This document shows, piece after piece, positions 2,437 through 18,010 of a DNA stretch of 64,000 nucleotides (positions within the stretch are counted from its first letter, which is position 1; the number at the start of each line of letters is the position of its first letter). Source of the stretch: Halohasta litorea (GTDB lineage Archaea > Halobacteriota > Halobacteria > Halobacteriales > Haloferacaceae); assembly GCF_024494645.1 (NCBI RefSeq), contig NZ_JANHDJ010000004.1, positions 248,001-312,000 of the forward strand, read 5' to 3'. The translations under genes and the position numbers were made by a program. A model generated the notes under the pieces. The model ran no database searches, was not told the origin of the DNA, and was given only the letters and a program-made list of their open reading frames with translations.

Positions 2437-3957
2437 TTAGTTCATGAAGTCCGTTCTGTTGGCGATCACCCCCCGAATGAGGTTCGACAGCGGCTGGATG
2501 AACAGCGCCAACACGGTCAGGACCCAGAGGACGATCGCGATCGTACTTCCGAAGAAGTAGAACGGATCGTTGCTGCTGACCAGCATGCTCCGGAGGAACG
2601 AGCCCTCGATGATGGGCCCGAGAATGATCCCCAGGATGAGCGGGATCAACGAGTAGTCGTTCTCCCGCATGACGAAGCCGATGATGCCGAAGATGAACAT
2701 CATCCAGACGTCGAACATGCTGCTCCGCATGGCAAACGCCCCGATCACTGTGAGTGCCAAGATCGCGGGCACGATGAGGTTGGCTGGCATCGTCACCACC
2801 CGGACGAGATACTTCGAGATCGCCAGCGCCGAGATCAGCAGGAAGACGTTGGCGACCAACAGCGAGAGGATGATCACGTTGGCCTCTAAGGCGAAGTTCT
2901 GCATCAGCTGTGGGCCCGGTCGGAGCCCGTGGAGCAGCAGTGCCGCAAGCATCACGGCGGTCGTCCCGCTGCCCGGAATACCGAGTGCGAGCGTCGGGAC
3001 GAGCGAGCCAGCGGTCACCGCACTGTTCGAGGACTCCGAGGCAATCACGCCGTCGGGATTGCCCTCGCCGAACGATTCGGGTTTGTCCGACATCGATTTC
3101 GCGGCCCCCCAGCTCACGAAGTTCGCGACCGAGGTCCCCGCCCCCGGCATCGAGCCGATGATCAGTCCGATCCCCATCGCCCGGATGAGCGCCACCGGTC
3201 GACTGATGACGTATCTGACCCCCTCGAAGATGTCCCTGTAAGAGGTGTTGATCGAGTTGTCCTCGCTGATGGCTGCTTTGTTGATCAGATAAAACAGCTC
3301 GGAGATGGCGAACAGGCCGACGACCACGGGCACGAACGGCACCTCGTCGTAGAGTCCGAAGAAGCCGAAGTCGAGCCGACGCTGTCCGGTCGTCGGGTCG
3401 ACGGGCATCACGGCGATGAGGAGCCCGATGAACCCCCCGACGAGCCCCTTGCGGATGTTGTCACCGATAGCAACCGCGACCGCTGTGAGCCCGAAGATCC
3501 CGAGGACGAATATCTCACGGTTGGTAAACAGGAACGCGATCTCCCCGATCGGCTGGAGCAAAAAGAGGATGATGATCGCCGAGACGAATCCTCCGACTAC
3601 GCTCGCAAAGATCGATATTCCGAGTGCCTTCGAGGCGTCGCCCTGTTGGGACATCGGGTACGCGTCCAGGACCGTTGCTGTCGCACCAGCGGTCCCGGGT
3701 GTGTTGATCAACACCGCGGGGATCGCCCCACCGTAGTTGGCCCCGACGTAGATCGCCGAGAGGGTAACCAGTGCGATCTCGGCGGTCATCGGCAGCGTAA
3801 ACGGCAGCGCGATGGCAACCGTGTTCGTGCCCGTGAAGCCGGGGATCGATCCGGCAAGCATCCCGAAGGTGACACCGACCGCGATAAACACGAGGTTCTC
3901 AGGTGTCAACAGTACCCCAAAGGCCTGGCTAATGAGATCGAGCTGTAACGGTGTCAT
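2437..3957 (-). CDS. tctA: Tripartite tricarboxylate transporter, large permease subunit (TctA family)
   Basis: A 506-residue membrane protein with about 11-12 hydrophobic segments. It carries the TctA-family motifs: GSIPGFTGTNTVAIALPF (residues 36-53), GSMPGAGTSVANF (268-280) and SNSAVTAGSLVPTLALGIPG (310-329). TctA is the main translocation subunit of TTT secondary transporters, which take up carboxylates captured by an extracytoplasmic TctC protein. The genes for TctB and TctC lie directly upstream on the same strand, so the whole system is present. The start is the ATG at 3957. TTT family substrates include citrate, tricarballylate and aromatic or dicarboxylic acids; the substrate here is unknown. 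Confidence 0.95.
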   Translation of the reverse strand: MTPLQLDLISQAFGVLLTPENLVFIAVGVTFGMLAGSIPGFTGTNTVAIALPFTLPMTAEIALVTLSAIYVGANYGGAIPAVLINTPGTAGATATVLDAYPMSQQGDASKALGISIFASVVGGFVSAIIILFLLQPIGEIAFLFTNREIFVLGIFGLTAVAVAIGDNIRKGLVGGFIGLLIAVMPVDPTTGQRRLDFGFFGLYDEVPFVPVVVGLFAISELFYLINKAAISEDNSINTSYRDIFEGVRYVISRPVALIRAMGIGLIIGSMPGAGTSVANFVSWGAAKSMSDKPESFGEGNPDGVIASESSNSAVTAGSLVPTLALGIPGSGTTAVMLAALLLHGLRPGPQLMQNFALEANVIILSLLVANVFLLISALAISKYLVRVVTMPANLIVPAILALTVIGAFAMRSSMFDVWMMFIFGIIGFVMRENDYSLIPLILGIILGPIIEGSFLRSMLVSSNDPFYFFGSTIAIVLWVLTVLALFIQPLSNLIRGVIANRTDFMN

Positions 3958-4051: not shown

Positions 4052-4570
4052 TCATAGTCCAAGCGGTCCTGATGGTGGCCGCAATCCCATTATCTGGACG
4101 AACATCACGTAGACGAACACCAGGATGATCACTGTCGAAATCGAGATCCACAGTGGGTCTCGGCGACCACCGACCAGCATGACGCCGACCATCGCGATAG
4201 CTGTCGCGATAAAGAAGCCGATCGGCTCGATCAACCAGATGTACCCGATCGCTACGAGGGAAAACCCGATCGAGCGGTTCCACTCGCCGAGTGCATCACG
4301 AACCGACTCGACGAACGACAGCTCCCCCGAGTAGTCGGCGAGCCCACGCAGCTCAGTTGCGAAGACGGTGAGCGACAGTACCGCGAGCACACCGATCACG
4401 AAGTACGGGTAGTACAGGTTCTCTAGCCTGATCCGCCCGTAGGTGTTCTCGACGTACAGTACCGCCAGCAGTAGGCCAGCAAGCGGGAATGCTAGCCTGA
4501 ACAGTGCGACCGCGCTCGTCGACCGAGCCGGACGATTCGTGGCCCCCTCTTCGGCCTCTGTTGATGTCAT
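4052..4570 (-). CDS. tctB: Tripartite tricarboxylate transporter, small membrane subunit (TctB family)
   Basis: A 172-residue protein with four predicted transmembrane helices. After a short hydrophilic N-terminus come segments around residues 25-43, 56-72, 98-130 (two closely spaced) and 140-165, the usual TctB layout. It sits between the TctC and TctA genes, 94 bp before tctA and 64 bp after tctC. TctB is the poorly conserved small subunit of TTT transporters, so the call rests on length, topology and position rather than sharp motifs. The ATG at 4570 is the first start in frame. Confidence 0.88.
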   Translation of the reverse strand: MTSTEAEEGATNRPARSTSAVALFRLAFPLAGLLLAVLYVENTYGRIRLENLYYPYFVIGVLAVLSLTVFATELRGLADYSGELSFVESVRDALGEWNRSIGFSLVAIGYIWLIEPIGFFIATAIAMVGVMLVGGRRDPLWISISTVIILVFVYVMFVQIMGLRPPSGPLGL

Positions 4571-4634: not shown

Positions 4635-5693
4635 TTAGGACTGCACGTATTCGTCGAACAGCGGGGCGAAATCCCGGTAGGTTTCGTAGGCACTCTGGAG
4701 GATCGCATCCGTCTCCTCGGGCGAGTTCCAGACCAGTTTGCCCTCCTCGTCGATCTCCGAGAGGTCGGCCCGGTAGTCCTCGTCCTCGTGGGCGTCTTTG
4801 AATGCCTGTTGGACGTGCTCGAACCGGTCGGGGTAGGCCTCGGCGGCCGCAGCCGAAACGTAGTAGAACTGCGTCCCGTTCGATGGGGCGTAGTTGATGT
4901 CGGTGCCGAGTTCATCGTTGATCGGCGGGGCATCGTTCGTCAGACCGGGTTCCGGGTTCTCTTCGGCGTAGATACAGAGACAGTGTGAGTCCTCCGCAAT
5001 GCTCGCGCTGTTGTAGACACTGCGTGCGGCCACATCGATCTCGCCCTGGAGGAGCGCAGTCTGGGTCGCGCCACCGCCATCGTACGGGACGATGGTGAAG
5101 TCGGCCTCTGTCGCCTCCATCAACTGGATGATCGACAGCACGTTCCGGTTCGTCGGGCCGGATGCACCGACGGTCACGCTGTTGTCGACCGAGTAGTCGA
5201 CGAGCTCCTGGATCGTCGTAAATCGGTCTTCGTCCTCGCGGACGCGGATGATCGCGGCCTCACCCGAGAGGGTGCCGAGCGGCTGGAGATCGTCGAGCGT
5301 GTACTGCGGTTCGGTGCCCTCGACTTCGTCGACGGCGATCGCCGCTGGCGTCGCAGGCGAGAGCGTCCCACCGATCCGCATGACCTCTTCGTCCTGAGCC
5401 ACGGTCGTCGCAGCCGTTCGCGTCCCCGCACCGGCCCGGTACTCGGGACTGAGATTGGCTCCGAGATACTCCTCGAAGTAGCCCTGGATCTGCCGGAAGT
5501 TCGTGTCGACGCCGCCACCCTCGGAGTACGCGTTGACGAAGGTCAGCGAACTCGGTGGGTAGTCGTCTCCACCGCCACCGCCGCCACCGTTACCGCCATC
5601 CCCATCATCGCCGCCGAGGCAGCCCGCAAGCGTTGATGCTCCGATTCCAGCACCGGTCAATTTGATGAACTGACGTCTGTTTGTACCAGTCAT
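4635..5693 (-). CDS. tctC: Tripartite tricarboxylate transporter, substrate-binding lipoprotein (TctC family)
   Basis: A 352-residue exported protein. The N-terminus has a twin-arginine signal (R6-R7-Q-F-I-K) and ends in a lipobox LAGC with Cys25 as the lipid-anchored residue, the usual haloarchaeal Tat lipoprotein design. A Gly/Asp-rich tether (about residues 27-43) follows, then a binding domain of TctC type, including VGASGPTNRN and FTIVPYDGGGATQTALLQGE. The gene is followed by tctB and tctA on the same strand. A 113-bp gap with AT-rich sequence precedes it, so it may have its own promoter in addition to any read-through from the enolase-family gene. It captures the carboxylate outside the membrane and hands it to TctAB. 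Confidence 0.93.
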   Translation of the reverse strand: MTGTNRRQFIKLTGAGIGASTLAGCLGGDDGDGGNGGGGGGGDDYPPSSLTFVNAYSEGGGVDTNFRQIQGYFEEYLGANLSPEYRAGAGTRTAATTVAQDEEVMRIGGTLSPATPAAIAVDEVEGTEPQYTLDDLQPLGTLSGEAAIIRVREDEDRFTTIQELVDYSVDNSVTVGASGPTNRNVLSIIQLMEATEADFTIVPYDGGGATQTALLQGEIDVAARSVYNSASIAEDSHCLCIYAEENPEPGLTNDAPPINDELGTDINYAPSNGTQFYYVSAAAAEAYPDRFEHVQQAFKDAHEDEDYRADLSEIDEEGKLVWNSPEETDAILQSAYETYRDFAPLFDEYVQS

Positions 5694-5806: not shown

Positions 5807-6934
5807 TTAGTCGACGCGGTACTCTTCGAAAACGTCCTCGTCGATGTGGATACCGAGCCCCGGCTCCTCCGGCGGGTCGATGGTCCCGCCGTCCTCGACG
5901 TGGATCGCGTCGTCGTTTTCGATGTAGGGACCGGCGATGTAGGTTCCTGGATCGTCGATGTCGTCGTCGAGTACTGCAAACTCGATCAGGCGGCACTGGC
6001 GGCTTGCGGCGGCGACGTGCAAGCTGGCGGCGTAGTTAATCGCCGGGCCGAGTGCGTGGGGGACCAGTTCCTTGTCGAAGGCTTCGACGAGCCCCGCGAC
6101 GCGCATCGCGCCGGTGATCCCGCCAACGTAGTCGACCGATGGCTGGTAGATGTCCAGGGATTTGGCTTTGAGGTGATCGAGGGCGGGGTAGTGCGGCGTG
6201 TGGGTCTGATACCCCGAGATCGGGACGGTGAACTTGCGATTGAGTTCGGCCTGTCCGTCGAGGTCGGTGTGGGAGATCGGCTCTTCGAACCATTCGACCT
6301 CGTACTCGCTGGCGGTCTTGGCGACCCGCGCCGCATCGTTGTAGCTGTAGGAGGTGTTGGCGTCGATCGCCAGCCCGAAGTCATCGGGGATGTTGTCCAT
6401 GATCGTCTTGATGCGGTGTCGATCCTCCTTGATGCCGTAGCCCGCGCCGATCTTCATCGCCTGGAACCCCTTCTCGGAGAGCCAGTCGGCGTAGTCGATC
6501 AGTTCCTCGGCGGTCTTGTCGACCGGGAACGTCGCGTAGGCCTTCACCTCGTTGGTCTGGCCACCGAGCAGCTGGTAGACGGGTTTGCCCGCGTCCTTGC
6601 CTTTGATGTCCCAGAGCGCCTCGTCGATCGCCGACAGCGCACCGTAGGCTCCGGCGCGCTTGACGTGAAGGTAGAGCTCGTGCCAGATCGCCTTGACATC
6701 CTCGGGGTCCTTCCCGATGATGTGCCGCGACATGGCTTCGATGCTCTCTGCGAGGAACATGTTGTTCTCCTTCGAGCGATAGAACGATTCGCCGAATCCG
6801 GTGATTCCGGCGTCCGTGTGGACGCGAACGACGACGGAGCTGATATCCAGTTCTCGTGCGCCGACCTGTGCTGGCAACGAAGCAGCGTCGACAGCACTCC
6901 CTAGCACTGCCGTTTCAACGTCTGTGATTTCCAT
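5807..6934 (-). CDS. Enolase-superfamily (mandelate racemase/muconate lactonizing enzyme-like) protein
   Basis: A 375-residue protein with the N-terminal capping domain and C-terminal barrel of the enolase superfamily. Two metal ligands are clear: Asp191 (AIDAN) and Glu217 (WFEEP). The spacing of 26 residues matches mandelate racemase. The third ligand, expected 26 residues later, is Gln243 (ISGYQTH) instead of Glu. A candidate catalytic His293 (VPHAL) is 50 residues further, as in mandelate racemase, and Lys161 (AMKIG) lies on the Lys strand, but the first Lys of the usual K-x-K is Ala159. Family members are mostly sugar-acid dehydratases, racemases or cycloisomerases. It lies between the oxidoreductases and the TTT genes, so it probably acts on the imported acid. 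The reaction is unknown. Confidence 0.85.
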   Translation of the reverse strand: MEITDVETAVLGSAVDAASLPAQVGARELDISSVVVRVHTDAGITGFGESFYRSKENNMFLAESIEAMSRHIIGKDPEDVKAIWHELYLHVKRAGAYGALSAIDEALWDIKGKDAGKPVYQLLGGQTNEVKAYATFPVDKTAEELIDYADWLSEKGFQAMKIGAGYGIKEDRHRIKTIMDNIPDDFGLAIDANTSYSYNDAARVAKTASEYEVEWFEEPISHTDLDGQAELNRKFTVPISGYQTHTPHYPALDHLKAKSLDIYQPSVDYVGGITGAMRVAGLVEAFDKELVPHALGPAINYAASLHVAAASRQCRLIEFAVLDDDIDDPGTYIAGPYIENDDAIHVEDGGTIDPPEEPGLGIHIDEDVFEEYRVD

Positions 6935-6991: not shown

Positions 6992-8107
6992 TTACAGATT
7001 GGTGTGTGAGTCGACGACGATCTGGGCAGGGCCGCGCGCCCCGTAATCGGCTTTGTTGGCGGTGATGTCGACCGCCTCAGCGAACGAATCGAGTCCAGAA
7101 CGCTCGTGAGTAACGTACTCCGAAATCGAGACGCGACCGCTGGCGACGAGTTCCGCGGCGAAATCGCCCGTGTCGCGGCCCGGTCCCGTGGGCGCGATAC
7201 CGGTCACGGGGTTCTGCCACGTGACCGACTTCTTGCGGACCGCCCGCGCCGAGAAGGTCACGTCGCCGATGATGTAGCCGACTTGGACGACCGTCCCACC
7301 AGCCTTGACCGCGCCCATCGCCTGTGCAATCGGGTCGCTGCCGTCGGTCGCGTGCGACTGGTCGCCGCCGACGGCCTCGAAGACCACATCCGCGCCGACG
7401 CCGTTCGTGTGGGCCGTGATTTCCTCGACCGGATCACAGCCGGTCGCGTCGATCGGATCGAGGCCGCGCTCGGCCGCGATATCGAGCTTTTTGGGGTCGA
7501 CATCGGTGACGAACACCCGCTCGGCCCCCTCTGCAAGCGCGAGTTGGGCACACTGGTAGCCCATGACGCCGGTGCCGATGACCGCGACGATATCACCCGA
7601 CTGAATTCCGCTATCGCGGACACAGAGTACCGAACTCGCCAGCGGTTGGAGCGCGGCGACCTCCGCGTCCGACAGCGAGTCGGCCACCGGCCGCAAGGCC
7701 TCGGCGGGCAGCGCGGTATACTCGGCGAGCGCGCCGGGAATGTCGTAGCCGATGTACGTCTTCGACGGGCAGTATCGCTTGAAACCCGACTCGCAGTACG
7801 AGCACTCCCCACAGGGGATCTTGCCGGGCGCATAGACACGGTCGCCGACCGCGAGGTGGTCGACGTTTTCGCCGCGTTCGACGACGGTGCCACAGAACTC
7901 ATGACCAAAGAGTCGCGCCGGGCCCTCGGCCAGCCGGGCGGCGACCGACTCGGCGTGAGCGATCGATTCGCCCTGAAACAGGGCACACTCGGTCACACTG
8001 AGTTGGACGCGGTGGATTTCGAGCAGGACTTCGTTGGCGTCGGGGGTCGGGCGGTCGACGTCTTCGACACTCCACGCGCCAAAATCGTGACAGACGACGG
8101 CGCGCAT
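6992..8107 (-). CDS. Zinc-dependent alcohol dehydrogenase
   Basis: A 371-residue medium-chain dehydrogenase. Catalytic zinc ligands are visible as Cys41 and His69-Glu70 (GHEFCG). The structural zinc site is complete: Cys99, Cys102, Cys105 and Cys113 (CGECSYCESGFKRYC). A Rossmann motif (VIGTGVMG) is followed by an acidic residue at the end of the next strand (VTDVD), which favours NAD over NADP. The gene follows the SDR gene with a one-base gap and precedes the enolase-family gene by 57 bp, so all three are probably one transcript. It likely oxidises a hydroxyl group of the pathway intermediate, like the threonine/sorbitol/L-idonate dehydrogenase group. Confidence 0.92.
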   Translation of the reverse strand: MRAVVCHDFGAWSVEDVDRPTPDANEVLLEIHRVQLSVTECALFQGESIAHAESVAARLAEGPARLFGHEFCGTVVERGENVDHLAVGDRVYAPGKIPCGECSYCESGFKRYCPSKTYIGYDIPGALAEYTALPAEALRPVADSLSDAEVAALQPLASSVLCVRDSGIQSGDIVAVIGTGVMGYQCAQLALAEGAERVFVTDVDPKKLDIAAERGLDPIDATGCDPVEEITAHTNGVGADVVFEAVGGDQSHATDGSDPIAQAMGAVKAGGTVVQVGYIIGDVTFSARAVRKKSVTWQNPVTGIAPTGPGRDTGDFAAELVASGRVSISEYVTHERSGLDSFAEAVDITANKADYGARGPAQIVVDSHTNL

Positions 8108-8108
8108 C

Positions 8109-8909
8109 TCAGATCACGCCGTCGAGCCAGCCGCCATCGACGCGGAGGACGTCACCGGTGATGTAGCTCGCCCGCGGCGAGGCGAGGTAGGCGACCGCGT
8201 CGGCGAACTCCTCGGGCTGGCCGGGGCGGTCGAGCAGCACCTCGTCGGTCCGGCTCTGGAGGGCTTTTTCGATGGAGATGCCGCGGTGGTCGGCCCGGCG
8301 CTGGACCTTGTACTCGATCCGCTCGGTCATCACGAACCGCGGGGTGACGCAGTTGGCTCGCACGTCGGGGGCGTACTCCTTGGCAATCGTCTTCGTGAGG
8401 CCGTAGAGCCCGAGCCGGAAGACGTTCGAGATGGCGTGGTTCTCCGGTGGCTCGCGGGCCGACGCGCTCGTGACGGTGACCAGCGAACCGACCTCGCTGT
8501 CGACCAACTCGGGCAGGGCGGCCTCCGAGAGCATGACGTTGCTCTTGATGACGCCCTCGTAGGAGTCGTCCCACTGCTGTTCGCTGGCGTCTTCGAGGGT
8601 GACCGCCGGTGGGCCACCGTGGTTGTTGACCATGATATCGAGGCCGCCGAACGTCTCGACGGTTTGCTCGATTGCGGCTTCGATCTGTTCGCGGTCGGTG
8701 ATGTCGCAGGCAACCGCGAGCACGTCGTCGGGATCGACTGAGTCGTGTTTCTCACAGAGTCGATCTTTCGCTTCGGCGGCGCGCTCCTCGCTTCGGGAGG
8801 TGACGACGACGTTCGCACCCTCTCCGGCGAGGCGGGCGGCGCTCGCGAAGCCGAGGCCCTGGCTTGATGCAGCTACAAAGGCAGTTCTGTCGACCAGTTC
8901 GAGGTCCAT
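8109..8909 (-). CDS. SDR family oxidoreductase with atypical active site
   Basis: A 266-residue short-chain dehydrogenase. The cofactor loop is AASSQGLG (residues 13-20), where the first glycine of the normal TGxxxGxG is replaced. NNHGGP (95-100) stands for the usual NNAG, and the C-terminus VDGGW is canonical. The catalytic Ser is in TVTSAS (about 148), but the Tyr-x3-Lys expected 12-14 residues later reads Ser161-x3-Arg165. A YGLTK (169-173) lies further on, at an unusual spacing. This looks like the subfamily with an AREP-x-N segment after the Ser. It is the first gene of the minus-strand island and shares its upstream region with a divergent MFS gene. Substrate unknown. Confidence 0.88.
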   Translation of the reverse strand: MDLELVDRTAFVAASSQGLGFASAARLAGEGANVVVTSRSEERAAEAKDRLCEKHDSVDPDDVLAVACDITDREQIEAAIEQTVETFGGLDIMVNNHGGPPAVTLEDASEQQWDDSYEGVIKSNVMLSEAALPELVDSEVGSLVTVTSASAREPPENHAISNVFRLGLYGLTKTIAKEYAPDVRANCVTPRFVMTERIEYKVQRRADHRGISIEKALQSRTDEVLLDRPGQPEEFADAVAYLASPRASYITGDVLRVDGGWLDGVI

Positions 8910-8994: not shown

Positions 8995-10266
8995 ATGCGC
9001 CTCTCAGTCTCGGGGTTCTCCCTCGCTGCCGCCAGGCGGGCGATCAGGACCTACGATCTCGTGCTTTTAATCGCCCTGCTGTGGTTCATGGTGCAGTTTC
9101 TCCGGTTCGTCTTTCCCCCGCTGTTCGGGACCTTCCAGGAACTCTACGGCGTCTCGAACACCCAAACCGGCCTGCTGTTTACCCTCTTGATGCTCGGCTA
9201 CTCGGCGATGCAGTTTCCCGGCGGCCTGCTGTCGGACCGGTTCCACGAGGTCACGGTTATCGTCAGCGGCGCGGGGCTGTTCACCGCGGCGGCGCTGTTT
9301 ACGTTCGTTGCGCCGACTTTCGGGCTGATCACGCTCGCGGCGGTCGGGATCGGCCTCGGCACCGGCGTCCACAAGACGGTCGCCATCGCCTACCTCTCGC
9401 GGGTCTACCCCGAACGCACGGGCCTGAGTCTCGGGATCATGGATACCGTCGGCCAGTTCGGGGGGATGCTCGCGCCCATCGCCGTCGTCGCGGTACTGGG
9501 CTGGGGCCTGCCGGGACGGACGGTCTTCCTGCTCGGTGCAGGAGCCAGCGCGGTGCTGGCAGTGTTGCTCTACCTCCGCGCGAAACCCCACGCGAACGGC
9601 GGGCCACAGCAGGAATCGGTCACTGTGGAGGCAACAAACGGCGGGTCGACCGACGCGACCGAAGAGACCGACATCGACCACTCCGAGGACGGCCCGACTG
9701 TCGACAGTCACTCCTACGTGACGATCTTCACCGACCGGAAACTCGTCTTGTTTCTCTGTGTAACCGTTCTCTTTACGTTCTCCTGGAACGGCCTTTCGGC
9801 GTTCTTTCCACTCTTTTTGGCCGACGCGAAGGGGCTCTCGTCGGGCACAGCGGGGATCGCCTACAGTCTGCTGTTCGCCGCGAGCGTCAGCCAGACCGTC
9901 ACCGGCGGCGCGAGCGACCGGGTCGGTAAACTCGCCATCTCGCTTTCCCTCTTCGGTGTCATGATCGCCGGACTGCTCGCGCTGCTCGTCGTCGATTCAG
10001 TCGCTGCCATCCTCTGTCTCACAGTCCTCACTGGGATCGGCTTCCACGGCTTCCGGCCGGTGCGCGACTCCTATCTCATGGACCTCATCCCGGATTCCAT
10101 CGGCGGCGGTACCCTCGGCATCGTCCGGACGTTCATGACTGCCATCGGCGGCGCAGCCCCCGCGGTCATCGGCCTGCTGTCGGATCTCTTCGGCTACACG
10201 GTCGCCTTCGGGCTGATCGTCTGCGCACTTGCCGTCGGCGGCCTGTTTATCGCGGTTTTGCGCTGA
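8995..10266 (+). CDS. MFS transporter
   Basis: A 423-residue protein with 12 predicted membrane helices in two halves. They are joined by an acidic linker at about residues 195-240 (ATEETDIDHSEDG). The loop after TM2 has GGLLSDRF, the MFS signature. The ATG at 8995 is about 27 bases after a TATA-like ACATAAA, consistent with a leaderless transcript. It is divergent from the SDR-ADH-enolase operon and followed by the MmgE/PrpD and IclR genes, so it probably moves a substrate of that pathway. It differs clearly from the MFS at 697-2097. Substrate unknown. Confidence 0.88.
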   Translation: MRLSVSGFSLAAARRAIRTYDLVLLIALLWFMVQFLRFVFPPLFGTFQELYGVSNTQTGLLFTLLMLGYSAMQFPGGLLSDRFHEVTVIVSGAGLFTAAALFTFVAPTFGLITLAAVGIGLGTGVHKTVAIAYLSRVYPERTGLSLGIMDTVGQFGGMLAPIAVVAVLGWGLPGRTVFLLGAGASAVLAVLLYLRAKPHANGGPQQESVTVEATNGGSTDATEETDIDHSEDGPTVDSHSYVTIFTDRKLVLFLCVTVLFTFSWNGLSAFFPLFLADAKGLSSGTAGIAYSLLFAASVSQTVTGGASDRVGKLAISLSLFGVMIAGLLALLVVDSVAAILCLTVLTGIGFHGFRPVRDSYLMDLIPDSIGGGTLGIVRTFMTAIGGAAPAVIGLLSDLFGYTVAFGLIVCALAVGGLFIAVLR

Positions 10267-10347: not shown

Positions 10348-11700
10348 ATGGCCGAGACAGCCACGCTTGCAGAGTACACCGTCAGTACCACCTACGACGA
10401 GATTCCGACAGACGCGGTCGACCACGCCAAACGGGCCATCAGAGACTATCTGGGAGTTGCCGTCTATGGCTCGCACCACGAGGTCGGCGACCAGATCATG
10501 GGCTACGTCGACCGGTGTATGCCGGGCGAGGAAGCCACCGTGATCGGCCGAGAGACGGCGAGCCCGACGGGGGCGGCACTCGCTAACGCGACGTTCGGCC
10601 ACGCGATCGACTACGACGATACCTTCGAGTCGATTGTCATTCATCCCTCCTCGCCGGTCTTCGGTGCGACGCTCGCCGCGGGTGAGGTGGCGAATGCCAG
10701 TGGGGAAGAACTGATCACCGCCTACACCGTGGGCTGTGAGGCTGCCTACCGCGTGGGCCACAGCACCTACCCGAACCACTACCAGAACGGCTGGCACAGC
10801 ACCGGTACCGTCGGGACGTTCGGCTCGGCGGCAGCAGCAGCCCACCTCCTGGACCTATCGGTCGACGAAACCATCACCGCCTTCGGGATCGTCGCTTCGG
10901 CCTCCTCGGCGTTGAAAAAGAACTTCGGCAGCATGACCAAACCGCTGCACGCGGGTCACGCCGCCGAAAACGGGGTTCGGGCTGCGCTGCTGGCCGAGAA
11001 CGGTTTTACCGCCGACAACGAGATTTTGGAGGGCAAGATCGGCTACGGGGAAGTGATGACAACCGACGGCTCCTACGACCCCGAGATCATCACCGAGGGC
11101 CTCGGCGAGGAGTGGGCCGTCCTCGATCTCGGCTTCAAACCGCATCCCTCGGGCGTGATCACCCACGCCGCGATGGACGCCCTGCGGACGCTCGTGATCG
11201 ATCACGATCTGACGCCGGAGTCGGTCGACTCGATGACGGTCGCCCTCGACGACGCGGCCTCCGAGATGCTCCACCACGCGAACCCGGACAATGCGCTCCA
11301 GGCCAAATTCTCCATCGAGTTCTGTCTGGCCGCCATTCTCCGCGAACGGAAGGCGGGCATCCACGAGTTCACCGACGAGTACGTCAGCCAGCCCGAGACC
11401 GCGGCAGTGATCGACAAGATCGACCGCGCCTTCGAGGAGAACCTCTTCGATGCCCACTACGCGAGCTACGGCGCGCGCGTCACCGTCGAGACGACGGATG
11501 GCGAAACGCTCGTCCAGGAGGTCAAACACCACCCCGGCAGCCCGAACAACCCAGTCAGCGAAGAACGGCTCCGGGCCAAGTTCGACGAGTGTGTGCTGAC
11601 AGTGCTCGACGACGACGGGACCGACCAGCTCGCCGAGACTATCGACGCGCTCGAAGACGTCCCATCGGTCGAGAACCTCGTCGACAAACTCCAGCCATAG
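10348..11700 (+). CDS. MmgE/PrpD family protein
   Basis: A 450-residue protein of the MmgE/PrpD family, which includes 2-methylcitrate dehydratase, cis-aconitate decarboxylase and iminodisuccinate epimerase. Seen motifs are NATFGHAIDYDDTF (the family N-A-x-x-x-H-x-x-D-[FY]-D-D), HPSSPVFGATLA and the Lys-rich region FGSMTKPLHAGHAAENG. Length is typical. An AT-rich promoter (TTTATGTATG about 30 bases upstream) precedes the ATG at 10348. With the citrate-synthase paralogue in the same island, methylcitrate dehydratase is possible, but the wide range of reactions in this family and the lack of prpB-like methylisocitrate lyase nearby leave the role open. Confidence 0.9.
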   Translation: MAETATLAEYTVSTTYDEIPTDAVDHAKRAIRDYLGVAVYGSHHEVGDQIMGYVDRCMPGEEATVIGRETASPTGAALANATFGHAIDYDDTFESIVIHPSSPVFGATLAAGEVANASGEELITAYTVGCEAAYRVGHSTYPNHYQNGWHSTGTVGTFGSAAAAAHLLDLSVDETITAFGIVASASSALKKNFGSMTKPLHAGHAAENGVRAALLAENGFTADNEILEGKIGYGEVMTTDGSYDPEIITEGLGEEWAVLDLGFKPHPSGVITHAAMDALRTLVIDHDLTPESVDSMTVALDDAASEMLHHANPDNALQAKFSIEFCLAAILRERKAGIHEFTDEYVSQPETAAVIDKIDRAFEENLFDAHYASYGARVTVETTDGETLVQEVKHHPGSPNNPVSEERLRAKFDECVLTVLDDDGTDQLAETIDALEDVPSVENLVDKLQP

Positions 11701-11741
11701 GGCGGCGACAGCGACGGTCACCCGAGACATACCTTTATTTT

Positions 11742-11758
11742 GTTCGTCGACAACGAAC
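11742..11758. promoter_or_regulatory. GTTCGT-N5-ACGAAC site at IclR promoter (candidate autoregulatory operator)
   Basis: A perfect 6+6 inverted repeat with spacer CGACA. It lies between a TATA-like CTTTATTTT (11732-11740) and the ATG of the IclR gene at 11763, which appears leaderless. Binding here would block transcription initiation, so autorepression is the simplest reading. Three more perfect copies follow at 13080, 13458 and 15992. Confidence 0.75.
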
Positions 11759-11762
11759 GCAT

Positions 11763-12530
11763 ATGAGCAACCCCGCAGACAGCCGGTCGGTGAAGTCGAC
11801 GCGAACGACGTTCCGTCTCATCGAGGCCCTCGAAGCGAACGACGGTGCGCGGCTCACTGATCTCGCGGACGAACTGGGGCTGGCAAAAAGCACCGTCCAC
11901 CAGCAGTTGTCGGCGCTGGTCGACCTCGGCTATGTACTCAAAGAGGACGGCCAGTATCAGTTAGGCCTGAAGTTTCTCGACTTAGGTGCATATGTTCGCA
12001 CGCGCAAGCGCGCGTACAACCTCGCCGAGCCACACGTCGAACAGCTGGCCACCGAGACCGGCGAACGAGCCCAGTTTATGACCGAAGAACACGGCCAAGC
12101 AGTCTACGTGCACACGAAACAGGGCGAACACGCCGTTAAGGCCGACCGGCGAGTGGGCAAGCGGCGATACCTCCATTCCAGCGCGGGTGGGAAGGCGATC
12201 CTCGCCCACTTTCCCGAAGCTCGGATCGAGGCTGTCATCGACCGATGGGGGCTCCCTCAGGAGACCGACAACACCCACGCGACCCGCGAGTCGCTGTTCG
12301 AAGATCTCGAAGCGATCCGCGAGCGGGGCTACAGTATGAACAAAGCCGAGTCGATCAGCGGGCTCTGGTCGGTCGGCGTCCCGGTGATGGGGCCCGAAGG
12401 GACGCCCGTGGGTTCGTTCAGCGTGTCCGGTCCCAGACACCGGATGAAGGCCGAACAGTTCCACGAGGAGACGGTCGATCTGCTGCTTGGCACCGCAAAC
12501 GAGCTCGAACTGAACATTGAGTATTCCTGA
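11763..12530 (+). CDS. IclR family transcriptional regulator
   Basis: A 255-residue regulator. Residues about 10-75 form a winged helix (TTFRLIEALEANDGARLTDLA, then LAKSTVHQQLSALVDLGYV). About 80-250 form the IclR effector-binding domain (GKRRYLHSSAGGKAILAHFPE, SGLWSVGVPVMGPEG, GSFSVSGP). The open frame extends far upstream through the MmgE/PrpD gene, but the ATG at 11763 is chosen because it follows a TATA-like box and starts directly before the family's N-terminal helix. A perfect inverted repeat, GTTCGT-N5-ACGAAC, ends 4 bases before the ATG. As the last gene of the plus-strand arm, it is the likely local regulator, responding to a small organic acid as is usual in this family. Confidence 0.93.
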   Translation: MSNPADSRSVKSTRTTFRLIEALEANDGARLTDLADELGLAKSTVHQQLSALVDLGYVLKEDGQYQLGLKFLDLGAYVRTRKRAYNLAEPHVEQLATETGERAQFMTEEHGQAVYVHTKQGEHAVKADRRVGKRRYLHSSAGGKAILAHFPEARIEAVIDRWGLPQETDNTHATRESLFEDLEAIRERGYSMNKAESISGLWSVGVPVMGPEGTPVGSFSVSGPRHRMKAEQFHEETVDLLLGTANELELNIEYS

Positions 12531-12581
12531 CTTTTCAGTCGACGTATACACTTATTCCGATACCCCGCAAAGAACGAGTGT

Positions 12582-12995
12582 ATGGTAATACTCGCAGCAG
12601 TTAGTGACACTGAGACGGACGAATCGATCGTCGCCGAAGCCGCGCGGCTCGCCGAGGCCTTCGACGACGAACTCCACGCGGTCTACGTCCAGACGTACGA
12701 CTCGCTCAACGAGGCCGAAGCGGATTCGACGGACGAGTCGATCAAACAACGGGCGGCCGCGACGGCGGAGGCGGCCACCGAGGGCCTCGATGTCCCAACC
12801 GTTCCGGTGGGACGTATCGGGGAGCCAGCCGCCGAGGTCCTGGAGTACGCCGAGACGGTCGAGACGCGGTACATCGTTATCGGCGGCCAGAAGCGGTCGC
12901 CGGTCGGCAAGGCCCTGTTCGGAAGCACGACACAACAGATCCTGCTGGGTGCAGAGCTGCCCGTCCTCACTGTAATGGGACACGGCGACGAGTAA
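12582..12995 (+). CDS. Universal stress protein family (UspA)
   Basis: A 137-residue single-domain UspA protein. The ATP-binding type motif G-x2-G-x9-G-[ST] is visible near the C-terminus (GGQKRSPVGKALFGST), followed by the strand LPVLTVM. It begins 51 bp after the IclR gene with its own AT-rich upstream sequence. A T-run (13008-13018) follows as a likely terminator. Its position between the IclR and PEP synthase genes may be chance, as UspA genes are scattered in haloarchaea. A second UspA gene is at 52551-53024. Confidence 0.9.
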   Translation: MVILAAVSDTETDESIVAEAARLAEAFDDELHAVYVQTYDSLNEAEADSTDESIKQRAAATAEAATEGLDVPTVPVGRIGEPAAEVLEYAETVETRYIVIGGQKRSPVGKALFGSTTQQILLGAELPVLTVMGHGDE

Positions 12996-13007
12996 CGACG
13001 CGGGCTG

Positions 13008-13018
13008 TTTTTTTTTTT
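13008..13018 (+). terminator. T-run terminator after uspA-like gene
   Basis: Eleven consecutive T residues, preceded by GGGCTG, 13 bases after the stop codon of the UspA gene. Archaeal RNA polymerase terminates at such U-tracts without needing a hairpin. Confidence 0.7.
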
Positions 13019-13079
13019 ATACGGGATCGGACTCCCAGTGCGTGAGGGCCGTGTCGGTACAACAGCCACAGCGGCCAGT

Positions 13080-13096
13080 GTTCGTCAGGAACGAAC
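13080..13096. promoter_or_regulatory. GTTCGT-N5-ACGAAC site, PEP synthase upstream region (distal)
   Basis: Perfect 6+6 inverted repeat with spacer CAGGA, about 510 bases before the PEP synthase ATG and about 85 bases after the UspA gene. It has the same arms as the site at the IclR promoter. Distance from the pps start suggests looping, or control of an unseen transcript in the region. Confidence 0.7.
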
Positions 13097-13457
13097 TAAG
13101 ATGTAACACGTGTTTCCTGTTGGATCGACCTACCGCTATTCATAATGAATATTTATATTTAATAAGTGGGCGAACGCGACTCATCAGCGAAGCACCGATA
13201 CACGCTCGCCGAGAGAACCGGTCGATCACGGTATTCGTTACTAGCGAACTATTGAGCGACATATATATTACAACCATATGTTTGTAACACAATCTGAGCT
13301 ATTCGATTGCCTCGCTGGCAGTCGTGATCCATGTCGAGTGTTCACAGACCTCTAACAGCCCAGAATGGATACTGTATCTGCGTAGTCTGAGATCGTTCGA
13401 ACCGTCAGTGGTTGCATCGAACGCCGAGCGGATCGAAGGCCGAGTGTAGGCGGCGCT

Positions 13458-13474
13458 GTTCGTCAAGAACGAAC
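13458..13474. promoter_or_regulatory. GTTCGT-N5-ACGAAC site, PEP synthase upstream region (proximal)
   Basis: Perfect 6+6 inverted repeat with spacer CAAGA, ending about 130 bases before the PEP synthase ATG and roughly 90 bases before the best TATA-like box. A regulator bound upstream of the TATA element would more likely activate than repress. Confidence 0.7.
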
Positions 13475-13602
13475 TCCACCGTTGTCAGCCGACAGCGCAT
13501 CCGTCGATTGATGTTTTTACTCCCAACTGAGTGTCTATCTATCCAACATTATAGTTAACAATAGATTCATATGGAAGCTACTGAATTGGACTCCTACAGT
13601 CC

Positions 13603-15882
13603 ATGAGTATCCAATGGCTCGAAGACATCCGGTCGACCGACCTTCCGACAGTCGGAGGGAAGGCGGCTTCGCTGGGCGAACTCACCGACGCTGGCCTGCC
13701 CGTTCCGCCGGGGTTTGTCGTCACCGCAGCCACCTACCGGAGGTTCCTGGAGGGGGCCGAGATCGACGCGGAACTGTTCGCCACACTCGATGTCGACCCG
13801 GATGACGCCAGGGGCCTCGCGACGGCAGCCTCGCAGGCACGCGAGCTCGTCATCGAGACACCCCTCCCGGAGGCCCTCGTCGAGGAGATCATCACCGCCT
13901 ACCGGGAGCTGGCGGGTGACGACGAGCCGGTCGCCGTCAGATCGTCGGCGACCGCCGAGGACCTCCCGGAGGCCTCCTTCGCGGGCCAACATGAGACGTT
14001 CCTCAACGTGACCGAGGATGACCTCGTCGACCGGCTCAAAGAGTGTTGGGCCTCGATGTTCACCGAACGGGCAGTTCACTACCGGAACGAACAGGGGTTC
14101 GACCACAGCGAGGTCGACATCGCGGTGGTCGTCCAGCGGATGGTCGACGCCGACAAATCGGGCGTACTGTTCACCCGTCACCCCTCGACAGGCGACCGAG
14201 AGATGATTGTCGAGGCCGCCTGGGGACTCGGCGAAGCCGTGGTCTCCGGAACGGTCTCGCCGGACCACTACGTGATCGATCCCGAGACCGCAACCATTGT
14301 CGAATCGACGATCGCCGACAAGAAACAGCGGATGGTCAAAGACCCCGAGACCGGCGAGACGACGCTCCAGCCGGTCCCCGACGAGGACCGGACGACACGG
14401 GTGATCACCGACGAGGAACTCGAAGCGCTCGTCGAACTCGGTCGGCGCGCCGAGTCCCACTACGGCGAGCCACAGGACATCGAATGGGCCATCGTTGAGG
14501 GTGACGTCTTCATGCTCCAGTCGCGGCCGATCACGACGATCACCGAAAACGACGCCGAAGACGTAGCCGACAGCCCGGAGGACCGCGATGGTCAACCGGG
14601 CGACGACGTACTCGTTCGTGGCGTCAGCGCGAGCCCCGGCACCGGGACGGGAGCGGTCCGGATCGTCAGGAAGCTCGATCACCTCGATCAAGTGACCGAC
14701 GGTGACGTCATCGTGAGCAAGATGACGATGCCGGATATGGTCCCCGCAATGAAACGGGCCGGAGCTATCGTCACCGACGAGGGCGGGATGACCTCCCATG
14801 CCTCGATCGTCTCCCGCGAGATGGGCGTCCCTGCGGTCGTCGGCACGCGAAACGCGACCGAGGTCCTGGAAAACGGCCGGACGGTGACCGTCGACGGCGA
14901 GATGGGAACCGTCCGCGAGGGAAGCCCGACGGAGGACGAAGCCGCGATCCAGCCCGATCCGCTCGAAGCGGTTCGACCACAGACGCCGGTCAAACCGATG
15001 ACCGCCACGGAGGTCAAGGTCAACCTCTCGATTCCCGAGGCTGCGGAACGTGCGGCCGCCACCGGGGCCGACGGCGTTGGCCTCTTGCGGATCGAACACA
15101 TGGTGATCTCGCTGGGCAAGACGCCCGAGCAGTACATCGCCGACCACGGCGAGGACGCTTACATCAGCGAGCTCGTCGACGGCATCCGAACGGTCGCCGA
15201 GGAGTTCTATCCCCGGCCGGTCCGGGCCCGCACGCTCGATGCGCCGACCGACGAGTTCCGCGAACTCGACGGCGGTAGCGACGAGCCGCACGAACACAAC
15301 CCGATGTTGGGCTACCGGGGAATCCGCCGGAGCCTCGATAAACCCGAACCGTTCCGCTGTGAACTGCGGGCCTTCGACCGGCTCTTCGAGATGGGTTACG
15401 ACAACGTCGAACTCATGTTACCGCTGGTCAACGATAGCGAAGACATCGACCGCGCCAAGACGCTCATGGAAGAGGTCGGCATCGACCCCGCGAAAGCCCG
15501 CTGGGGCGTGATGGTCGAGACGCCCGCCAGCGCGTTGTTGATCGAAGAGCTCGCGGCCACGGGCATCGACTTCGTCTCCTTCGGCACCAATGACCTCACC
15601 CAGTACACCCTCGCAGTGGACCGAAACAACGAACACGTCGTCGACCGGTTCGACGAACTCCATCCCGGCGTCCTCAAGCTGATCGAATCCACGATCGAGA
15701 CCTGCCGCGAACTCGGGGTCGACACCAGCATCTGCGGACAGGCCGCCTCCAAACCGGCGATGGTCGACTTCCTCGTCGAACAGGGGATCTCCTCGATCAG
15801 CGCGAACATCGACGCCGTCCAGGACGTCCAACACGAGGTCAAGCGCATCGAGCAGAAACTGCTGCTCGACTCGGTTCGATAG
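13603..15882 (+). CDS. ppsA: Phosphoenolpyruvate synthase (pyruvate, water dikinase)
   Basis: A 759-residue enzyme that makes PEP, AMP and phosphate from pyruvate and ATP, the entry to gluconeogenesis from pyruvate. Domains in order are an N-terminal nucleotide-binding domain (about 1-320: VGGKAASLGEL, VAVRSSATAEDLPEASFAGQ), the swivelling phosphohistidine domain with His399 (EGGMTSHASIVSREMG), and a C-terminal PEP/pyruvate barrel (GVMVETPASALL, SFGTNDLTQYTLAVDR, catalytic Cys711 in CGQA). Length is typical. The ATG at 13603 follows a small hairpin directly. Two candidate operators lie upstream and one downstream, suggesting control by the nearby IclR protein. Confidence 0.97.
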   Translation: MSIQWLEDIRSTDLPTVGGKAASLGELTDAGLPVPPGFVVTAATYRRFLEGAEIDAELFATLDVDPDDARGLATAASQARELVIETPLPEALVEEIITAYRELAGDDEPVAVRSSATAEDLPEASFAGQHETFLNVTEDDLVDRLKECWASMFTERAVHYRNEQGFDHSEVDIAVVVQRMVDADKSGVLFTRHPSTGDREMIVEAAWGLGEAVVSGTVSPDHYVIDPETATIVESTIADKKQRMVKDPETGETTLQPVPDEDRTTRVITDEELEALVELGRRAESHYGEPQDIEWAIVEGDVFMLQSRPITTITENDAEDVADSPEDRDGQPGDDVLVRGVSASPGTGTGAVRIVRKLDHLDQVTDGDVIVSKMTMPDMVPAMKRAGAIVTDEGGMTSHASIVSREMGVPAVVGTRNATEVLENGRTVTVDGEMGTVREGSPTEDEAAIQPDPLEAVRPQTPVKPMTATEVKVNLSIPEAAERAAATGADGVGLLRIEHMVISLGKTPEQYIADHGEDAYISELVDGIRTVAEEFYPRPVRARTLDAPTDEFRELDGGSDEPHEHNPMLGYRGIRRSLDKPEPFRCELRAFDRLFEMGYDNVELMLPLVNDSEDIDRAKTLMEEVGIDPAKARWGVMVETPASALLIEELAATGIDFVSFGTNDLTQYTLAVDRNNEHVVDRFDELHPGVLKLIESTIETCRELGVDTSICGQAASKPAMVDFLVEQGISSISANIDAVQDVQHEVKRIEQKLLLDSVR

Positions 15883-15991
15883 GAACCCGCGAGCACCACT
15901 CTTAGAGTGTTTCGGAGATCGATCCGGCGGCAGTCGCCTTGCTCGTAGAACCCGTCAACCACGGTCGTCTGGGACGGTAGCAGCGAAAACA

Positions 15992-16008
15992 GTTCGTCAG
16001 TAACGAAC
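15992..16008. promoter_or_regulatory. GTTCGT-N5-ACGAAC site between converging genes
   Basis: Perfect 6+6 inverted repeat with spacer CAGTA, 109 bases after the PEP synthase stop and 88 bases before the stop of the converging SMC-like gene. It is not at a known promoter. It may serve an antisense or small transcript, act as an auxiliary site for looping, or be a decoy. Confidence 0.6.
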
Positions 16009-16053: not shown

Positions 16054-16075
16054 TGAAACAGGGTACTTTGTTTCA
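16054..16075. repeat. Inverted repeat between converging genes
   Basis: TGAAACA - 8 bases - TGTTTCA, a perfect 7-bp inverted repeat 22 bases before the end of the SMC-like gene. It may form a hairpin in the 3' ends of the converging transcripts, or be a protein site. No T-run follows on the plus strand. Confidence 0.45.
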
Positions 16076-16096: not shown

Positions 16097-17941
16097 TCAG
16101 GCGGGTGCCGGATCTCGGTCGGAGACGACATCCCACTCGTCCGGTGAAATGATGTGTGCCTCGAAGTCGCCAGCTTCGGGGTAGGCGGTGGTGACGAGTA
16201 TCTCGGTGGTGGCTTCGAGATACTCGATGAGCTTCCGGAGGTGTGCCGATGCGAGTTGGCTGATCCCATCGATCAGGACGATCGGCGTGCGGTCCTCGAC
16301 ATCGTAGACCCGATACCCTGCGAGTGCGACGGCGACGCCGATGAGTTCGACTTCGCCCTCGCTGAGGGCGTCGACGGTCGTCTGCCGACCGTCACGTGCG
16401 ATGTTGAGTTCGAAGCCCTCGATCTCTCCCTGCGGGTCGGTTCTGATATCGAAGCGCGCGTGATCGAATCCGGGGGCAAAGCGGTCGATGATCTCGCTGA
16501 CTGCCGTATCGAACGCCGCTTTGAGTTCGTACTGTGTCTCGGTTTTGCGGGTCCGTAACGATTCGATCTCGGTTTCGTACCCGGCTTGTTGTTCACGGAG
16601 CCCCTCCAAATCGCTCTTCCGGTCGTCGAGTGTATCGAGTCGCTCACGAGCCTCGTCGAGTCGGGCCGCTTTCGTTCTGATCTCCGTTTTTACGTCAGTC
16701 AGTGTTTCAGTGTACTGGCTTTCAGTGGTATCGAGTTGGTCGGCAAGCGCCTGGATTTCGTCTTCCAGGGCGTCCCGTTTCGAGAGGTATGTCCGACGTT
16801 CTCCGTTCAGGTCCTGTATCTCCGCGCCGAGCTGTTTTCTCTCCTGTTCGAGCCGGTCGTGTTGGCTCCGCCGCTGTTCGATCAGTCGTTGCTGTTGGTT
16901 GTACTCCGTAATGTCTTCCTGGAGGTCGTTCGTGTCTGCTCTCAGTTGTTCGATCGTCTGTTGCATAGCTTCGAGACGACCACTCAGCTCGCGTTTCGTG
17001 GATTCCTTGCCACAGAGCCAGCACGTAATGTCGTCTCCAGAGACTGTCCGAGAGACATCGGTTATGCGGTCGAGATCACCGTCTTCCAGCATGTTTCGAT
17101 TGGCGTGGTACAGATCCTCGATGAGGTGGATCTGATCGCGCAACGCGGCGATTCGCTGTTCTCGTTTTTCGACATCGATCGAGTCGACGGGTTCGGAGGG
17201 GACCGTCAGTTCGTCGAGTTCCGACTGTTTGTCGGCTTTCCGTTCGGTCGTTCGCTCGATCCGGTTTTCGATTCGTTCGATTTTGTTTTTCACCGTTTGG
17301 AGGCGGCTTTTCGATGAACTGAGTTGATCACTCGGATCGCCTTTCTGCAGGTCGTCGACACGTTCCTGTTGGAGTTCGTCTCTGCGCGCTCGAAGCGATT
17401 CGAGTTCGGTTGTAAGCTGTGTTACCTTTTCTTGGACAGCAGGGAGTTCGGCTGCTGCAGTTTCGGCAGTGTCGATTCGTGCGTCGACAGCGTCTCGCTG
17501 CTCTTTTAGCGTCCGAATCTGAGCATCGATATCTTCGAGCTCAAGCGGGGCCTGTAAATATTCGGTGAGGTCCTCGCCGTTTCGTACCGCCCGTCGGATC
17601 GGATTGTCTTCGCCGAGGAACGCGAACAGTCGAGCAGACACCTGGTCGGTGTCCGTCGCGAGATACGGTGTTCCGGATCGGACTGGACGCTCCCCCTGCT
17701 CACGGGTAACCGTGACCGCATACGAGTCGGAATTGGTCTCCAGGACGACCGAGCCGGTGTCTTCGCCCTCAGTGAGGAGATGGTCGCCGTAATGGCCGGT
17801 CGCACCCATGACGGTCCGTATCGACGCTATAAAACTCGATTTGCCCTGAAAATTAGAGGCCTGAACGACGTTCAACCCCGGCTTGACCGTCGCTGACCCG
17901 GACCGAATACCGGCGATATTCTCGATAGAGACTGTTTTCAT
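16097..17941 (-). CDS. Archaeal SMC-related/Rad50-like coiled-coil ATPase (Sph3-like)
   Basis: A 614-residue SMC/Rad50-type protein. The N-terminus (MKTVSIENIAGI) leads to a variant Walker A, ASNFQGKSS (28-36). A long coiled coil (about 130-480) follows, with a Cys307-x-x-Cys310 zinc hook (CWLCG) at its middle. At the C-terminus come a signature-like LSEGE and a Walker B-like strand ending in Asp558-Gly559 (VLIDGI), without the usual catalytic Glu. The ATG at 17941 is preferred over the GTG at 17950 because a TTTATC box lies about 28 bases before it. It follows an RdfA-type gene by 69 bp. This pairing is known in haloarchaea; in Haloferax volcanii rdfA and a neighbouring SMC-like gene lie in a cell-shape locus. 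Its role here is inferred. Confidence 0.85.
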   Translation of the reverse strand: MKTVSIENIAGIRSGSATVKPGLNVVQASNFQGKSSFIASIRTVMGATGHYGDHLLTEGEDTGSVVLETNSDSYAVTVTREQGERPVRSGTPYLATDTDQVSARLFAFLGEDNPIRRAVRNGEDLTEYLQAPLELEDIDAQIRTLKEQRDAVDARIDTAETAAAELPAVQEKVTQLTTELESLRARRDELQQERVDDLQKGDPSDQLSSSKSRLQTVKNKIERIENRIERTTERKADKQSELDELTVPSEPVDSIDVEKREQRIAALRDQIHLIEDLYHANRNMLEDGDLDRITDVSRTVSGDDITCWLCGKESTKRELSGRLEAMQQTIEQLRADTNDLQEDITEYNQQQRLIEQRRSQHDRLEQERKQLGAEIQDLNGERRTYLSKRDALEDEIQALADQLDTTESQYTETLTDVKTEIRTKAARLDEARERLDTLDDRKSDLEGLREQQAGYETEIESLRTRKTETQYELKAAFDTAVSEIIDRFAPGFDHARFDIRTDPQGEIEGFELNIARDGRQTTVDALSEGEVELIGVAVALAGYRVYDVEDRTPIVLIDGISQLASAHLRKLIEYLEATTEILVTTAYPEAGDFEAHIISPDEWDVVSDRDPAPA

Positions 17942-18010
17942 CCCACTCACAGTTCAGACTATGATATGATAAAGGAGGGGGCTCGTATGGGGACAGTCCA
18001 CGCGAGGATG

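Follow-up and report, generated by a model that had tools for sequence, protein, structure and literature searches.

A candidate operator of an archaeal IclR-family regulator and its array upstream of a phosphoenolpyruvate synthase gene in Halohasta litorea

Described IclR systems and the locus in Halohasta litorea

As a rule, IclR-family factors control their own gene together with one or two neighbouring operons, and the positions of bacterial IclR sites show peaks at -22 and between -3 and +1 (PMC8222616). In haloarchaea, XacR of Haloferax volcanii is an activator of pentose genes and a negative regulator of its own synthesis (PMC6995148; also PMC10448506), and the IclR regulators MscR, GacR and RhcR have been described as activators of catabolic genes (PMC11519228). 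In this study, we analyzed 64,000 nucleotides of Halohasta litorea (assembly GCF_024494645.1, contig NZ_JANHDJ010000004.1, positions 248,001 to 312,000; G000:C29:248001-312000 in our numbering; hereafter the window), part of a genome of 3,810,331 bases, and a 17-bp palindrome with the half-site consensus GTTCGTY-NNN-RACGAAC, which recurs beside an IclR-family gene (11763-12530) and ppsA, the gene for phosphoenolpyruvate (PEP) synthase. Judged from sequence, this palindrome is probably the operator of that IclR protein, which would bind it to repress its own gene and to control an mmgE or ppsA gene from upstream, in a manner similar to XacR.

As with XacR, the regulator is a haloarchaeal IclR protein adjoining its catabolic cluster (PMC6995148); XacR's cluster serves pentose, whereas a carboxylic acid would be the substrate here. 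MscR, GacR and RhcR share the family and the haloarchaeal host with the window's regulator, but they belong to sugar or sugar-alcohol catabolism (PMC11519228). The initial annotation had called the operator new, which does not hold for its geometry, as this is that of the published GTT-11-AAC subgroup of bacterial IclR group 1, GTTYCRYW3RYGRAAC (Suvorova and Gelfand, 2021; PMC8222616). Both are 17-bp palindromes with GTT/AAC ends, 11 bp between them and centres near the start codon. In contrast, the half-site is GTTYCRY in that subgroup and GTTCGTY here, with G,T instead of C,R at positions 5-6, and the subgroup was defined on bacterial genomes, whereas the present host is an archaeon (PMC8222616). 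The outer bases GTTCG...CGAAC are also found in PcaR/PcaU/PobR-type sites (GTNCG-N5-6-CGNAC), but 5-6 bases separate the CG pairs there and seven here (PMC8222616); the window's IclR protein scored far below the TIGR02431 cut-off (136.5 of 284.75 bits). The operator strings gave no literature match, and titles and abstract openings on haloarchaeal IclR regulators named no such operator; subscription papers lie outside this coverage, and absence from print is not claimed. Of interest here are the clean footprint of the operator, the base difference between two clades and the different genes behind the array. A palindromic operator was reportedly noted at xacR in the original XacR study.

Candidate operator copies and their association with one IclR clade

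The initial annotation reported four perfect copies of GTTCGT-N5-ACGAAC, all of which were recovered (O1, O2, O4 and O5 in Table 1) with no further perfect copy in the window, compared with a mean of 0.01 in 100 dinucleotide shuffles, none reaching four. Matches with up to two mismatches numbered 13 against a shuffle mean of 5.06, and no shuffle reached 13. According to the gene boundaries and the list of open reading frames (ORFs), the four copies are intergenic and stand beside IclR and ppsA, as described before: they lie between the MmgE/PrpD gene (end 11700) and IclR (ATG 11763), between the universal stress protein (Usp) gene (end 12995) and ppsA (ATG 13603), and between ppsA (end 15882) and a minus-strand ORF (16097-17950). 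A mechanical ORF (11112-12530) crosses the first copy in the IclR frame; the start was placed at ATG 11763 because the orthologues in G046, G048 and L100 begin at the corresponding ATG. A fifth, degenerate copy (ATTCGTTACTAGCGAAC, O3) had been overlooked. The rule that the spacer begins with C and ends with A holds for the four perfect copies, but across 31 sites the spacer is mostly just pyrimidine...purine.

The whole genome contained six perfect copies (reversed control pattern, 0), four at the locus and two inside ORFs of 325 and 897 aa, the longer of which we take to be MutS. With two copies per 3.81 Mb, the measured background is about eightfold higher than the 0.004 per window first estimated, but still tiny, and the post hoc Poisson probability of four copies in 4267 bp was ~1e-12. 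The looser consensus RTTCGYYNNNRRCGAAY gave 10 genome matches (reversed control, 1), five of them within 4.3 kb at this locus. By a crude coding test (ORF of at least 80 aa, acidic, low Arg), three of the five elsewhere lie in ORFs (C28:165523, C28:333556 and C32:102886), C32:264266 is doubtful as to coding, and C32:232980 has no acidic ORF over it. When the window was scored with a weight matrix derived from 26 sites in other genomes, the five copies ranked on top with 23.2-25.4 bits, almost 6 bits above the next match (17.4 bits, inside an ORF); this ranking is supportive rather than independent, because the 26 training sites were chosen by likeness to the motif.

Seventy distinct IclR homologues were compared with their DNA (72 loci; duplicates L099 and L102 dropped); scanning contigs with the four-member IclR alignment A1 gave 35 loci, and no relative came up with the single protein as the query. 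Nine proteins with at least 57% identity to the window's IclR formed the orthologue group, namely those of the window, G046, G048, L100 (from a Halovenus metagenome-assembled genome, MAG), L110 (incomplete, at the end of a contig; its MAG project is that of G048), G140 (Halorubrum sp. CSM-61), L101 (YIM A00010), G229 and G253. The last two belong to other families of the order, and the orthologous loci span three families.

In these data, relatives that keep this gene also keep the site, the opposite of what the initial annotation had named as a refutation: all nine orthologues have a match with up to two mismatches no more than 60 bp from the start codon. The match is perfect in G000 (the window), G229 and G253, and has one mismatch in G048, L100 and YIM A00010 and two in G046, L110 and G140. 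This presence at the regulator's own promoter, as in an XacR-like autoregulated system, suggests that the site is the operator of this IclR. At least two copies (≤1 mismatch) occur within 1.5 kb in eight of the nine orthologous loci, the ninth being L110, whose contig ends inside the gene, compared with none of the 61 more distant homologues; seven of the 61 have a single such copy, and none was found in the 26 loci L020-L045. The residues VHQ of the presumed recognition helix, STVHQQL, were likewise present in 9/9 orthologues and 0/61 other homologues. In five loci (the window, G046, G048, L100 and L110), O1 is centred at -13/-14 to the ATG and immediately follows a T-rich TATA-like stretch, and in the four outgroups (YIM A00010, G140, G253 and G229) the ATG lies inside the palindrome. 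As both placements fit the blocking of a leaderless start, autorepression appears likely. G047, a genome of the window's genus with no orthologue (best match 5.2e-34), has just one perfect copy, which falls within an ORF, and no operator match within two mismatches upstream of its ppsA; this is a weak control, because that ppsA is of the more distant 62% type.

A second IclR clade has the same frame with one base changed, which supports the IclR protein as the reader of the operator, an argument that rests on two clades. All 12 distinct sister-clade members with at least 66% identity to the query (L172-L178, L106, L114, L115, L119 and L122; duplicates L108, L131 and L132 dropped) have GTTCGA-N5-TCGAAC (≤1 mismatch) at -53 to -67 of their own start, and the helix residues are [VI]HRH in all 11 of these whose helix was read. 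In the nine sister members at 58-63% identity, the palindrome was found within one mismatch in two and with two mismatches in one. GTTCGA-N5-TCGAAC was absent from all nine VHQ orthologues.

The distal array, its downstream genes and alternative explanations

Eight gaps behind IclR or IclR-Usp were compared (405-906 bp, with L100 represented by an arbitrary stretch of 581 bp), and each contained two to four copies within two mismatches, with a distal copy besides the proximal one. At this threshold, the proximal site precedes the next start codon by 95-170 bp in all seven gaps with a same-strand downstream gene. The gene behind the array belongs to MmgE/PrpD in four outgroups (Halorubrum sp. 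CSM-61, YIM A00010, G253 and G229). In the window's genus, it is ppsA in all three genomes with this IclR, and MmgE/PrpD is located upstream of IclR rather than behind the array. From this outgroup arrangement, parsimony would make MmgE/PrpD the earlier target and the array older than its ppsA neighbour. The regulon first proposed, joining catabolism with gluconeogenesis, is partly supported: operators precede ppsA, but only in the window's genus (three genomes); the ppsA link looks lineage-specific and goes with a duplicated ppsA. The Usp gene had no tblastn match in YIM A00010 and G229. A small protein encoded in the gap behind Usp was considered and rejected, as comparison of the six-frame small ORFs of the eight gaps yielded nothing beyond short, weak matches, most of them between the three same-genus genomes.

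The window's PEP synthase scores above the curated cut-offs of both NF005057 and TIGR01418. Another close ppsA copy, with 77% identity, is located at G000:C29:58282-60663, and second copies are also present in G046 and G048 (partial in the latter). In a PpsA tree of 11 rows, trimmed at the first start and leaving out G103, one supported branch (96/95) splits the three cluster copies from the three second copies; no operator within two mismatches was found at the second-copy loci L087, L088, L089 and L095. The cluster copies have TACT-N7-GAGT at -85 (CACT in G048), which resembles the TrmB motif TACT-N(7-8)-GAGTA (PMC3794607). TrmB binds the ppsA promoter in Haloarcula hispanica, with no differential expression there (PMC10817205). 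A like element occurs on the opposite strand, around -81 to -83 of ppsA, in G006 and G140, and by coordinates at about -82 in G103; it was not found at the G145 ppsA, at the second ppsA copies or, in G047 and G046, at the ppsA of the 61-62% type. In the window element, the last base is G where the TrmB motif has A, another match of this type lies in the window at 27342, and eight fixed bases are weak evidence.

The following mechanism is proposed. An IclR dimer on O1, between the TATA-like box and the start, would repress transcription of its own gene, and dimers on O2, O3 and O4 would exert their effect from upstream, in the presence of the cluster substrate most likely by activation, for which XacR is the precedent. 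The distal array would first have controlled the MmgE/PrpD gene and, in the window's genus, the duplicated ppsA, with PEP synthesis switched on together with carboxylic acid catabolism. The sequence evidence covers the sites, their conservation, their co-occurrence with the IclR clade and the differing downstream genes, and from it we infer binding, autorepression, activation, the inducer, the order of events and the physiological link. A more tentative proposal, to which we give somewhat less than an even chance, is that of capture: a duplicated ppsA placed behind the IclR array would have replaced MmgE/PrpD and kept its TrmB-like element, PEP synthesis would be gated by substrate through IclR and by the absence of glucose through TrmB, and haloarchaeal IclR proteins would share the frame GTTCG[T/A]-N5-[A/T]CGAAC with a clade-specific sixth base. 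The locus offers a candidate operator for an archaeal IclR, and the two clades differing at one half-site position make DNA specificity testable in archaea. It also points to a regulatory array that was kept while the gene behind it changed, tying peripheral catabolism to the entry step of gluconeogenesis.

Several observations speak against IclR acting at its own promoter and upstream of these genes. In the Halovenus MAG locus L100, a three-site array (11310-11631) follows IclR-Usp, but neither MmgE/PrpD nor ppsA comes next, and O5 lies between convergent genes. No match within two mismatches was found in the window's SDR/MFS, MR/MLE or Tct upstream gaps. Bacterial IclR tandem sites are commonly 18-22 bp apart (PMC8222616), whereas the nearest in the window are 153 bp apart; distances between neighbouring copies range from 153 to 284 bp in G000 and G046 and from 225 to 253 bp in the outgroups, and the closest in G048 are 74 bp apart, counting a two-mismatch copy. 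The near-start sites of three of the nine orthologues are the two-mismatch copies given above, and near-start matches at the same threshold also occur in 7/61 distant homologues, six of them of the GTTCGA...TCGAAC form and one (L111) one mismatch off the GTTCGT form. Finally, the sister palindrome is absent in six of the nine members at 58-63% identity, despite helices of the VHRH/IHRH type, and several other VHRHL homologues also have no GTTCGA palindrome; helix residues alone do not predict the site.

It is possible, though we doubt it, that autoregulation is real and ppsA is a bystander behind a pre-existing array, using its own promoter with the TrmB-like site. That the TrmB-like element (about -82 to -85) is common to ppsA outside the genus (G006 and G140), and that five array-bearing loci have no ppsA, would fit this explanation. 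However, operator copies precede ppsA in 3/3 genus genomes with this IclR, despite a gap with only 58% mean column identity in the three-way alignment, best at the ppsA end.

We consider it unlikely that IclR is a repressor everywhere, with dimers at the distal pair looping the DNA to shut the downstream gene until the substrate arrives. Outgroup paired sites 225-253 bp apart before the next gene, with the proximal site 95-170 bp upstream of the start, are compatible with a loop; the individual spacings of 225, 231, 240 and 253 bp have no common helical phase, and haloarchaeal IclR regulators have been described as activating their catabolic genes (PMC11519228; PMC6995148).

The gap also contains a second conserved palindrome, TTACAA-N8-TTGTAA, which lies between the operators in seven of the eight gaps (six within one mismatch and one with two; not found in the G048 gap), against expectations from simple letter shuffles of about 0.01 for one mismatch and 0.155 for two. 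Three perfect copies and six within one mismatch were counted in the genome, with three for the reversed control, so the palindrome is special by place and not by genome count. Its other genome copies lie near ORFs that are presumably sugar-metabolic. Its position suggests a second regulator acting at the array, and the conservation of another sequence here gives some room to the idea that a different regulator binds the GTTCGT palindromes, which would merely travel with the cluster. This is improbable, since the site stands at the IclR start in every orthologue, no array is found in the 61 other homologues, and the sister IclR clade has its one-base-changed palindrome near its own start.

Still less credible are RNA hairpins acting as attenuators, terminators or start-codon occluders. 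Six-base arms, five-base loops and the ATG in the loop region of four outgroups would allow them, but only the four central pairs are invariant, the remaining three are disrupted in 7, 5 and 13 of the 30 sites, covariation was not above shuffles, and the window's O1 would lie upstream of the expected leaderless start; the pair counts and the covariation result led us to reject hairpins.

That the copies cluster by chance, through a motif that haloarchaeal codon usage favours, has a negligible probability, because the five non-coding copies within 4.3 kb have counterparts at equivalent positions in the orthologous loci of three families, even though GTTCGT-N5-ACGAAC occurs 0-10 times in each of 170 genomes of the family and six of the eight outside copies checked (in G000, G046, G048 and G140) lie in ORFs.

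The perfect copies under an ORF outside the locus are, besides those of G000, L152 (G048), L160 (G046) and L161 and L163 (G140), and L156 (G046) and L157 (G048) have no such ORF. The L156 copy (G046:C1:1311307-1311323), GTTCGTCTGAAACGAAC, lies in repeated sequence beside two ORFs that we take to be Cas2 and Cas1, and is probably a CRISPR (clustered regularly interspaced short palindromic repeats) repeat and not an operator. G253 has a second perfect operator pair at L170:9617 and 9782, 165 bp apart and ~950 bp upstream of an amidase gene, which is followed by TctC and two ORFs resembling TctB and TctA; these amidase and Tct genes are a possible additional target of the operator.

Features of the locus and the catabolic cluster

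The coordinates of the features are collected in Table 1. The window's IclR protein belongs to the family by its domain scores, with 44.8 bits for PF09339 (cut-off 22) and 113.6 bits for PF01614 (cut-off 24).

Table 1. Features of the IclR-ppsA locus, in window positions
Feature	Position	Strand	Remark
Operator O1 (candidate), GTTCGTCGACAACGAAC	11742..11758	.	adjoins TATA-like CCTTTATTTT; centre 13 bp upstream of IclR ATG
Operator O2 (candidate), distal	13080..13096	.	~520 bp before ppsA ATG
Operator O3 (candidate), degenerate ATTCGTTACTAGCGAAC	13233..13249	.	153 bp from O2; spacing equal in G046
Operator O4 (candidate), proximal	13458..13474	.	~130-145 bp upstream of ppsA ATG
Operator-like copy O5	15992..16008	.	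between convergent ppsA and 16097-17950 ORF
IclR-family regulator, 255 aa, presumed operator reader	11763..12530	+	Pfam HTH_IclR 1.1e-11, IclR_C 9.9e-33
Usp family gene behind IclR	12582..12995	+	Pfam Usp 3.5e-19
PEP synthase (pyruvate, water dikinase), ppsA	13603..15882	+	TIGR01418 928.6 bits, cut-off 739.75
TACT-N7-GAGT, TrmB-like site	13518..13532	+	at -85 of ppsA
Second conserved palindrome TTACAA-N8-TTGTAA, TTACAACCATATGTTTGTAA	13268..13287	.	between operators
MmgE/PrpD family gene	10348..11700	+	Pfam 5.1e-70; sits behind paired operators in four outgroups
MFS transporter	8995..10266	+	
SDR dehydrogenase of catabolic cluster	8109..8909	-	
Zinc alcohol dehydrogenase-like	6992..8107	-	
Mandelate racemase/muconate lactonizing (MR/MLE) family, dehydratase-like	5807..6934	-	
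TctC receptor, tripartite tricarboxylate transporter	4635..5693	-	
TctA	2437-3957		ORF 4052-4570 named TctB from position alone

In order of families, the cluster comprises TctA/TctC, MR/MLE, zinc alcohol dehydrogenase, SDR, MFS, MmgE/PrpD, IclR, Usp and PEP synthase. Because of the transporter type, its substrate is predicted to be a carboxylic acid. The nearest solved structures of the MmgE/PrpD protein are iminodisuccinate epimerase and then IRG1/cis-aconitate decarboxylase, and both this protein and the MR/MLE enzyme scored far below the cut-off of every NCBIfam equivalog listed. In the MR/MLE enzyme, Gln (GYQTH) replaces the Glu of the three PDB relatives compared, and QPS stands in place of QPD, so that its metal site may be altered; GYQTH is shared by the G140 homologue. 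In G253, the MR/MLE match (L141:15838-16961) is in two pieces near its end, a possible frameshift.

Behind ppsA, O5 has a counterpart with one mismatch in the matching interval of G048 (L047:6682) and none in the corresponding interval of G046. An inverted repeat, TGAAACA-N8-TGTTTCA, lies at 16054-16075 between the convergent genes and is present in G048 too.

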